Shown: in pieces, positions 52,619 through 54,633 of the stretch | How positions within the stretch are numbered: the first letter of the stretch is position 1 | Layout: the number at the start of each line of letters is the position of its first letter | NCBI GenBank assembly: GCA_029098225.1 | Contig: JAQXNX010000033.1 | Span: forward strand, 62,001 to 126,000 | Length of the DNA stretch: 64,000 bases | Direction: 5' to 3' | Origin: Spirochaetales bacterium | Lineage (GTDB): Bacteria > Spirochaetota > Spirochaetia > Treponematales > Treponemataceae | Notes under the pieces: model-generated | What the model was told of the DNA's origin: nothing | Databases searched by the model: none | What the model saw: only the letters and a program-made list of their open reading frames with translations | Program-made: the position numbers and the translations under genes

Positions 52619-52687
52619 AACGCCCCACTTCATATAAAAAGTGTAGTTATACAATTTTAATCCATAAATGGAGAATAATCAATGGAA

Positions 52688-52844
52688 GCAGCCTAAAATC
52701 GAAGAACCGTTAAAAAGCGAGCTGCGACAGCAGATCGCTTTAGGTTCATCGAAAGAAGGGCTCAAGCTGCGAGACTATGCGAGCAGCCTATAATCGAAGA
52801 ACCGTTAAAAAGCGAGCTGCGACAGCGGGTCGCTTTAGGTTCAT
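52688..52844. repeat. Two 62-bp direct copies (95-bp period) of a hairpin repeat
   Basis: gcagcctAaaatcgaagaaccgttaaaaagcgagctgcgacagcRgRtcgctttaggttcat at 52688-52749 and 52783-52844; each can fold (gaacc...aagcga / tcgctt...ggttc). Confidence 0.85.
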
Positions 52845-53099
52845 AAAAAAAATGCTCGGAGGCAAGATATGCATGCCGATTTATGTTGATCCATTTTCTT
52901 TAAACGTCTTTATCAATAACAATCTCACTCTGCTGAGACCACCAGTCAGCGCCTTCGTTTCCAACACCGCCATTCTCATTTATCCTAGCCACAAGGCTTT
53001 ATTGCAGACAACTTGTGCACTCAAAAATTTTCATTTTTTTTTCATAAATTTTGTCAAAAATGTATATTTAAAGACAATATTATATATAGAGTTTTTTTA

Positions 53100-53518
53100 G
53101 ACCTACATGATATGGCAACAAGGCTGTTTTGTAGGTCAAAATAACAGAAAACCAAATAAACCACAGAGCTGGCAACCTACAAAACAAGCGGGCATTAATG
53201 TCTTGTAGGTTATTATGCCGCTGCCTTGTTGTGTAAGCCGAGGATGCAACCTACAAAGTGTAAAATGAGGCTTTTTTTGTAGGTCGAGAATTCCAAAAGC
53301 AGGCCGCTCACCGAGTTTTGAGACCTACAAAATATGAGCCGAAAGTGTTTTTGTAGGTCGAGATTGCAGAAAATTTACAAGAATCTTGGAGTACTCCCCT
53401 GCAAGCGACCTACAAATCAAGGGAAGTAGCCTGTATTGTAGGTCAACTTTTCGAAAAATGCTCCTGCAAAATGGAGTCTTGACCTACAAGATATTTAAAG
53501 CAAGTAGTTTTGTAGGTC
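53100..53518. repeat. Array of six 38-bp inverted-repeat units (RACCTACAA-N20-TTGTAGGTY), 74-bp period with one 85-bp step
   Basis: Units read directly: 53100-53137, 53174-53211, 53248-53285, 53322-53359, 53407-53444, 53481-53518. Arms are conserved; 20-bp cores and 36-bp (one 47-bp) intervening segments diverge. Confidence 0.93.
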
Positions 53519-53592
53519 GCATGATCTACAAAACTACAAGAATTTGAAACTGATGCCCTGCAGGCTGTCAAAAATCAGAAGGAGAAAACTAC

Positions 53593-54633
53593 ATGAAAGA
53601 AGAACTGTTACCCCCATGTAATCTGGAAGAAGAAATTGAGAAGAGACTTAAAAATTTACAGACAACATTAATGGAAAAAGAAAAGGAAGTTAATAAAAAA
53701 CTTGAAGGGCACCTGCGAATTGCCCAGAGGCATGGCAGAAGTCAATTTTATCATTACACAGAGAGTTCAAATCCAAAAGGCCGCTACATTCCTCTTAAAG
53801 AAAAAGACTTTGCCTACAAACTGGCTCAAAAAAATTATGATACAGAAGTTATAATATTAATTCAAAAAGAAATCGACGCGCTGCAAAATTACCTGAAGCA
53901 GACAAGCGATGGCCGCGCTATTTCAGAACTCTACGATTCTCTCTGCCCGGCCCGCCGCGCTCTCATTACTCCTGTAACTTTCACAGATGAGCAGTACGCG
54001 GCCCGCTGGCAGGAAATCTCCTGGACTGGCCGGCCTTTCTCACAAGAGGCTCCACTTCTCTACACAGCCCGCGGCGAGCGGGTACGCTCCAAGTCTGAAG
54101 TAATAATCGCCGATACACTTTTTCGCCACAAAATTCCTTACCGCTACGAGTATCCGCTCACGCTCCGCCGCAGCGGCACCACAGCAACCCGTGATAATTT
54201 AGAAAAGCGCAATCACCGCATCATCTCTGACTCCGGCATCCACACAAAAGCCATCGGCGGCGGCAACTCCGACACCACAAACTCCGCCACCGGCAACACA
54301 TCCATCTGCAATCACACCACAAGCACCGGCAACACATCCACCTGCAATCACACCACAAGCACCGGCAACACCACCATATCCGGTCACCACACTTCCATTA
54401 CACTTCACCCCGACTTTCTCTGCCTCAACACGCGCACCCGTCAAGAATTCTACTGGGAACATTTTGGACTTATGAACGACCCAACCTACTCAAACAATGC
54501 GGCCGGCAAACTCCGCCTCTACACAGAAAACGGAATTCTCGCCGGCCGCAATCTCATAATTACAATGGAAACTCTGGAAGAACCTCTGTCTACACAAACC
54601 ATTGGAAAACTGATCACAGAGTTTCTAACCTGA
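53593..54633 (+). CDS. PD-(D/E)XK-superfamily-like nuclease of unknown function with tandem-repeat insert
   Basis: ARGERVRSKSEVIIADTLFRHKIPYRYEYPL ... LHPDFLCLNTRTRQEFYWEHFGLMNDPTYSNNAAGKLRLYTENGILAGRNLIITMET, consistent with E / PDF / ExxW catalytic-core spacing; RBS aaggag at about 53580. Confidence 0.7.
   Translation: MKEELLPPCNLEEEIEKRLKNLQTTLMEKEKEVNKKLEGHLRIAQRHGRSQFYHYTESSNPKGRYIPLKEKDFAYKLAQKNYDTEVIILIQKEIDALQNYLKQTSDGRAISELYDSLCPARRALITPVTFTDEQYAARWQEISWTGRPFSQEAPLLYTARGERVRSKSEVIIADTLFRHKIPYRYEYPLTLRRSGTTATRDNLEKRNHRIISDSGIHTKAIGGGNSDTTNSATGNTSICNHTTSTGNTSTCNHTTSTGNTTISGHHTSITLHPDFLCLNTRTRQEFYWEHFGLMNDPTYSNNAAGKLRLYTENGILAGRNLIITMETLEEPLSTQTIGKLITEFLT
54289..54384 (+). repeat. 36-bp in-frame tandem repeat (12 aa, TGNTS[I/T]CNHTTS), about 2.7 copies
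   Basis: accggcaac recurs at 54289, 54325 and 54361; translation TGNTSICNHTTS-TGNTSTCNHTTS-TGNTTISGHHTS. Confidence 0.9.

Follow-up and report, generated by a model that had tools for sequence, protein, structure and literature searches.

Helically phased arrays of inverted-repeat sites adjoin a family of small PD-(D/E)XK-like nuclease genes in gut Treponema and some gut Firmicutes

Small nuclease genes of one family, found in gut Treponema and some gut Firmicutes, nearly always adjoined an array of paired DNA sites set in helical phase. The sequence of these sites changed along with that of the nuclease, suggesting a previously undescribed protein–DNA partnership. The array and its gene were characterized in a 64,000-nucleotide stretch of DNA (the window) from the 3.05-Mb genome of a gut Treponema-type spirochaete (genome G000). 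Phased double-stranded DNA sites recognized by a cognate nuclease would be the best-supported core of our reading; in full, with a probability of roughly 0.55, a stand-alone nuclease would act as a dimer, its N-terminal domain would bind the arms of the sites, and the array, set in helical phase, would be the cognate site through which the nuclease is autoregulated or sequestered. We infer all protein–DNA contacts described below, binding included, from sequence.

The window array (53101-53517) was composed of six inverted-repeat units, ACCTACA-N22-TGTAGGT, each exactly 36 bp between the outer conserved bases and with the usual arm form GACCTACAA...TTGTAGGTC. The units started at 53101, 53175, 53249, 53323, 53408, and 53482 (spacings of 74, 74, 74, 85, and 74 bp) and were alike in their arms only, with unrelated loops and linkers. 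The pattern ACCTACAA N14-22 TTGTAGGT occurred five times in the window versus 0 times in 100 dinucleotide shuffles of it, and the one remaining unit of the six had a one-base mismatch to this pattern. From the array end at 53517 to the ATG at 53593 there were 75 bp, and no convincing gene intervened; the one ORF seen was a 53-aa TTG-start frame inside the array. The arrangement described in the first-pass annotation (array upstream of the nuclease gene, 75-bp gap, AAGGAG, and no intervening gene) was thus confirmed, with six 36-bp units. A consensus promoter scan of the leader before the array gave a weak match at 53051-53078. The features were as follows:

53049..53089, + strand: AT-rich conserved leader with promoter-like sequence (TTTTGTCAAAAA...GACAATATTATATATAG), directly before the array; recurs before the arrays of other 'type A' loci (see below)
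53101..53136, no strand assigned: inverted-repeat unit 1, left arm ACCTACATG, right arm TTTTGTAGGT (pattern search)
53175..53210, no strand assigned: inverted-repeat unit 2 (pattern search)
53249..53284, no strand assigned: inverted-repeat unit 3 (pattern search)
53323..53358, no strand assigned: inverted-repeat unit 4 (pattern search)
53408..53443, no strand assigned: inverted-repeat unit 5, spaced 85 bp from unit 4, i.e., one extra helical turn (pattern search)
53482..53517, no strand assigned: inverted-repeat unit 6 (pattern search)
53579..53584, + strand: ribosome-binding site AAGGAG of the nuclease gene (sequence)
53593..54633, + strand: nuclease gene, 346 aa (ORF); C-terminal part similar to the C-terminal end of PADLOC PDC-S68 models, E 4e-24
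53593..54027, + strand: N-terminal domain, aa 1-145, predicted as two long helices plus a beta tip of three strands, at aa 39-62 in the window protein (model); its divergence tracks arm sequence
54085..54630, + strand: predicted PD-(D/E)XK domain with E169 (54097), D274 (54412), E285 (54445), and E289 (54457) (alignment, model)
54181..54396, + strand: window-specific Thr/Ser/Gly/Asn-rich insertion in the nuclease domain, about 70 residues, partly 36-bp tandem repeats (sequence)

The E...PDF...ExxWEH residues (E169, D274, and E289 in the window protein) were invariant in 47 homologues, and the predicted structure of a homologue had a mean pLDDT of 95; the C-terminal half of this model gave weak PD-(D/E)XK matches in the PDB (DrdV and MunI, E 0.009 to 0.25) and better matches among viral models (phage endonucleases, E down to 6e-4). 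The PD-(D/E)XK core that had been proposed from the letters alone was therefore upheld in its residues and supported in its fold, and the family displays the conserved acidic core on a restriction-endonuclease fold that characterizes the superfamily. The family had no match above noise in Pfam, NCBIfam, or PHROGs, and the PDB sequence search gave no match; structure comparison displayed a single PD-(D/E)XK domain and no transposase-type domain, and the comparison of the N-terminal domain with solved structures gave no DNA-binding fold match and no convincing relative. The C-terminal nuclease domain was homologous to PADLOC PDC-S68 models (E 4e-24 to 1e-26), which are candidate defence proteins; this gives no more than a hint of a possible role. 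When 149 genomes sampled from the phylum were searched, those outside this genus gave C-terminal matches inside long proteins only. The same nuclease domain was also observed within PDC-S68-like open frames of 1,100-1,500 aa (G020:C15, G028:C15, G073:C142, G252:C25, G308:C25, G325:C68, and G230:C1; G, C, and L numbers denote genomes, contigs, and loci, respectively), and the Thr/Ser/Gly/Asn-rich insertion of the window nuclease was missing from most homologues. A viral origin was considered and rejected: the scan of viral contigs with the window protein and the family profile gave one weak match only, and phage and plasmid tblastn gave partial C-terminal matches only.

Among 118 Treponema-group genomes, 33 had matches to the family profile, at most 10 in any one genome; most of the genomes used were draft assemblies. 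The array search of the fetched loci assumed no particular arm sequence, and both sets of loci were scored with 7-bp arms at no more than one mismatch per arm, so degenerate arrays were missed. In the first set, at least two units with a common 7-bp arm were present within the upstream 900 bp of 53 of the 66 Treponema-group loci (at least three units in 46), compared to 6/65 downstream flanks and 0/66 shuffles as controls; in the second set of 25 loci, fetched later from other genomes, arrays were found at 23 (21 upstream and 2 downstream), and a nuclease copy broken by a stop codon had no array. Across 84 loci, about 16 had no detected array, a few of these being cut by contig ends. Arrays were likewise found beside most nuclease copies of Pseudobutyrivibrio and other Clostridia. 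G000 itself harbored two further nuclease loci: contig C14 carried an intact paralogue, whose upstream array was of another type (TACGGATAAA...TTTATCCGTA), and contig C10 carried a nuclease remnant. The background in this genome was low, with about seven array-like loci in the 858 kb scanned (of 3.05 Mb), two of which were the nuclease arrays, and a contig scan with a single-unit pattern gave mostly chance matches, this pattern being too short. The suggested two-part association accordingly stood, with arrays beside the large majority of homologues; the check proposed for it, namely whether homologues consistently lack arrays, came out in its favor (53/66 and 23/25).

The arm words varied between copies (CCTACAA, CCTACAG, CGGATAA, CGGCTAA, ACTTAAC, CCCATAG, CCTGCAA, CATATAA, TTACGTG, and others), and the centre-to-centre unit distances fell at 50-52, 62-64, 73-75, 83-85, 94-95, and 104-106 bp, or at multiples where a unit was missing. 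Pooled unit spacings (n = 268) had a period of 10.5 bp (R 0.88, phase near zero); R was 0.85 after collapsing to distinct arm/spacing pairs, at most 0.29 in the random-jitter control, and 0.89 in the later set, in which 94% of the spacings lay within 1.5 bp of n x 10.5. Since the spacings were multiples of 10.5 bp, all units would lie on one side of the helix, and spacing inside single arrays varied by whole DNA turns. A/T tracts peaked at -21, -10, 0, +9, and +20 bp from the dyad, well above arm-fixed shuffles, and such tracts every ~10 bp are as expected for DNA that may be bent or wrapped. Units of most arrays were alike in their arms only; near-identical tandem expansions were found in some arrays (L276, L235, L262, and L287), the largest arrays had 13-14 units, and at some loci the array lay downstream of the gene only or on both sides of it. 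The helical phasing, the sharing of arrays by most homologues, and the solitary arrays elsewhere (see below) go beyond the first-pass annotation.

Arm similarity between loci correlated with N-domain identity at 0.35. In Mantel tests, in which kinship of loci was handled only by redundancy filtering at 90% identity, the partial correlation of arm similarity with the N-domain given the C-domain was 0.215 (0/500 permutations), versus 0.054 (64/500 permutations) with the C-domain given the N-domain, i.e., no detectable addition. Five of the ten residues best tracking arm similarity were located in the beta tip, and no single column of the alignment passed correction for all columns in the column-wise test. 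These results suggest that the N-terminal domain reads the arm, with two protomers per unit.

The arms within one unit matched no better than the arms of different units, so hairpin pairing would not be what matters; 160 arm deviations were one-sided versus 5 two-sided and matched, 29 of the 160 one-sided deviations were G-U compatible (coding strand), and a covariation-like tendency was seen in solitary arrays at the outermost base only. Because the 10.5-bp geometry was constant, arm-arm covariation was absent, and A/T tracts recurred every ~10 bp, the data indicate an array of double-stranded DNA sites read by a protein, rather than RNA hairpins or guide spacers. The position of the array relative to promoter-like motifs, which were assigned from conserved motifs alone with a weak consensus scan, differed among loci: (i) 'type A' loci, including the window, had the conserved AT-rich promoter-like leader 5' of the array and (ii) 'type B' loci had a promoter-like motif between array and gene, and thus the array need not be in the nuclease mRNA.

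An RNA-level system, in which a transcribed array would supply hairpins as guides (CRISPR-, TIGR-, or omega-like) or as a leader processed by the nuclease, would gain from the 'type A' leader, by which the array may be transcribed, and from the 498-nt leader RNA folding better than shuffles (z -6). Despite this folding, the guide-RNA or hairpin reading was rejected on the missing arm covariation, the helical phasing, and the promoter position of the 'type B' loci, and the RNA-level explanation as a whole is the least probable of those weighed here: compensatory arm changes were lacking, spacing within one array varied by whole DNA turns, and the Rfam search gave no match. CRISPR-like spacer acquisition was likewise rejected, the loops of orthologous arrays diverging by point changes with no spacer turnover. 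Of the roles suggested in the first-pass annotation, the guide array and the processed 5' leader RNA found no support on these grounds; of an array 'bound, processed, targeted or autoregulated' by the nuclease, binding and autoregulation survive as possible readings, but RNA processing does not.

No conserved neighbour gene was found within 2.5 kb of the nuclease, and the neighbours were varied housekeeping genes. At the hisF site, the nuclease cassette and the array were present together in G092, G015, G111, and G026, and neither was present in G104 (with a space of ~90 bp), G076, G168, G184, G129, G148, and G153; G000 likewise had neither the nuclease nor an array of this kind at hisF. Different arms occupied the same place upstream of pnp, i.e., CCTACAA (G000 and G092), ACTTAAC (G015), and CCCATAG type (G153 and G168), each with a different nuclease type. 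At these sites, gene and array are gained, lost, or replaced jointly as one unit; neither hisF nor HMA/MATE showed clean element ends or target-site duplications.

On C12, C10, and C14 of G000 and in related genomes, solitary arrays lay beside unrelated genes, and their arms were those of known nuclease types. The strong nuclease association held, but arrays beside unrelated genes, the outcome proposed as telling against the association, were seen in part, and such arrays therefore also exist apart from the nuclease. A GNAT gene and a CD3324-like/ParB-like gene flanked a solitary five-unit ACCTACA array with a spacing of 64 (L174 5446-5737; G000:C12:75445-75736), which several related genomes retained at the corresponding position. 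Solitary four-unit arrays with spacings of 64/105/64 or 64/95/64 were present at several unrelated loci (L175 4186-4452, L154, L165-L169, and L172), and a solitary CATATAA-type array had GNAT genes on both sides (L311 13840-14119; G000:C14). Two 64/105/64 arrays at different loci shared 75% identity over 216 bp, hinting that these recurrent arrays may be a dispersed element. None of the three nuclease loci found in G000 had the arm type of its CATATAA-type array.

The most likely use of the array would be autoregulation plus sequestration of the nuclease. Each unit would take two nuclease molecules: the N-terminal coiled-coil/beta-tip domain of each would read one arm, ~14 bp away from the dyad, with both PD-(D/E)XK domains near the unit centre. 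Several units, whole helical turns apart and with A/T tracts every ~10 bp, would be occupied together along one side of bent DNA, forming a cooperative complex next to the promoter of the nuclease gene. The array would hold the nuclease and repress its gene, so that a potentially harmful nuclease would be kept scarce, and different arms would insulate the nuclease from its paralogues. The sequences themselves show the geometry and phasing of the arrays, their association with the gene, the covariation of the arms with the N-domain, the lack of arm-arm covariation, and the joint presence and absence of gene and array; we infer this protein as the binder, dimeric binding, repression, and a final cutting target. 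Counting against autoregulation and sequestration are the solitary same-arm arrays, the variable promoter position, the CATATAA array with no matching nuclease, the lack of a solved DNA-binding fold resembling the N-terminal domain, the failure of every single alignment column to pass correction, and the roughly 16 of 84 loci with no detected array; arrays downstream only or on both sides would be odd for a simple operator, and arrays of 13-14 units are more than repression needs. More tentatively, at odds that we would place somewhat below even, the locus may represent an undescribed class of module, in which the N-domain reads an 8-10-bp arm by an evolving recognition code, the nuclease is locked on a bespoke phased bent array that travels with it, and up to ~10 mutually insulated copies per genome serve as nuclease-sequestering (possibly defence or selfish) devices.

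The main rival, unlikely but to be taken seriously, is a REP/RAYT-like minimal mobile element, in which the nuclease would treat the arrays as ends or substrates, move the cassette, and scatter array-only copies. The up to about 10 nuclease copies per genome, the varied housekeeping neighbours with no conserved partner gene, the presence/absence polymorphism at hisF and pnp, the arrays on both sides of some genes, the solitary arrays of the same arm type, and the recurrent 64/105/64 array (75% identity over 216 bp between two loci) all suit such an element, but the units of most arrays were alike in arms only and thus are not recent copies, clean boundaries and target-site duplications were missing at hisF and HMA/MATE, the protein had the single PD-(D/E)XK domain and no transposase-type one, and mobility would not require helical phasing. 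A mobile cassette and autoregulation or sequestration would be compatible with each other. The units might instead be long cleavage sites of a homing-type or self-cutting endonuclease, with units added and removed as cutting prompts repair and conversion of the locus. This would accord with two 8-10-bp half-sites suggesting a homing-endonuclease-like specificity, with the invariant catalytic residues, and with the near-identical tandem expansions; it is nevertheless improbable, since the empty hisF sites had no arrays and so offered no target for homing, the sites at its own gene would be cut unless activity were restrained, and several genomes retained solitary arrays at one and the same site with no sign of invasion. 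Slightly less probable still, the arrays would be sites of an unrelated host protein (e.g., a nucleoid or partition protein) with the nuclease as a passenger. The solitary arrays beside unrelated genes would fit, as would the A/T-tract phasing, which suits a bending protein, but paralogue arms differed within one genome and followed the nuclease N-domain, for which a single host protein gives no explanation, and no conserved partner gene was found.

The comparison was also applied to known systems. REPIN/RAYT combines a nuclease-type gene with its own palindromic intergenic repeats, adjacent and scattered, and several types, each with a repeat of its own, can coexist per genome (PMC3116915, PMC8266576). 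The likeness lies in a gene with its own palindromic repeat family beside it and elsewhere; RAYTs belong to the HUH enzymes and work on single-stranded hairpins that bear a GTAG/CTAC tag, whereas the present family is PD-(D/E)XK-like, gave no Pfam match to Y1 transposases, and adjoins helically phased arrays with no arm covariation and no arm pairing constraint. Solitary arrays were few per arm type, and two loci were alike over 216 bp. TIGR-Tas arrays, which lie before and/or after a single gene, typically have 5-15 units, with repeats constant within and variable between loci, and Tas carries a Nop domain, the arrays being processed to 36-nt RNAs and displaying covariation (PMC12045711). The array-beside-gene layout is similar, but here no Pfam match to Nop was found and no Nop was among the PDB matches listed, covariation was absent, and the DNA period ran from 50 to 158 bp in 10.5-bp steps rather than with a 36-nt unit period. 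The identical direct repeats and acquired spacers of CRISPR-Cas had no counterpart in these arrays, which had palindromic arms only. TnsA of Tn7-like transposons has a PD-(D/E)XK fold. The ends of Tn7-like elements carry short-repeat arrays bound by TnsB (PMC8649781); the likeness lies in these site arrays and in a PD-(D/E)XK enzyme in the system. Here, no TnsB/TnsC-like conserved neighbours were found within 2.5 kb of the nuclease loci, arrays were mostly one-sided where a Tn7-like element would have two array-bearing ends, and no element ends were identified. PADLOC PDC-S68 models shared the homologous C-terminal nuclease domain only: they span ~1,200-1,270 residues, while the present proteins had 260-350 aa, a different N-terminal domain, and an array. 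Iteron and operator arrays of plasmid partition and control proteins contain multiple phased sites near the binder's promoter. The present sites are likewise phased, but here a nuclease would do the binding, and neither a partition ATPase nor a polymerising partner goes with it. No published description of this nuclease/array system was found in the open-access journal literature searched.

If the proposed partnership between nuclease and phased array is true, many gut bacteria would possess a system whose nuclease and DNA array shift specificity together, with many-site helical phasing kept while nearly all other bases change. The system would also offer a natural series of cognate protein–DNA pairs from which a recognition code might be read, and a testable role for a nuclease family that has no curated name and is related to a candidate defence domain.

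Other repeats were observed nearby and in related genomes. A short hairpin repeat GATGCTGAAACAAGTTCAGCATGA, absent from the window, and a second repeat GCGCAAGGGCATGGAGCTGCGCC appeared to recur in intergenic regions of G015, G104, G148, G153, and others. The window region 52682-52852 contained two 76-nt copies, 89% identical and 95 bp apart, each with the inverted repeat GAACCGTTAAAAAGCGA...TCGCTTTAGGTTC; a diverged similar sequence was present near pnp in relatives, the exact 17-mer was found in the window only among the fetched loci, and the 95-bp offset was again about nine helical turns.
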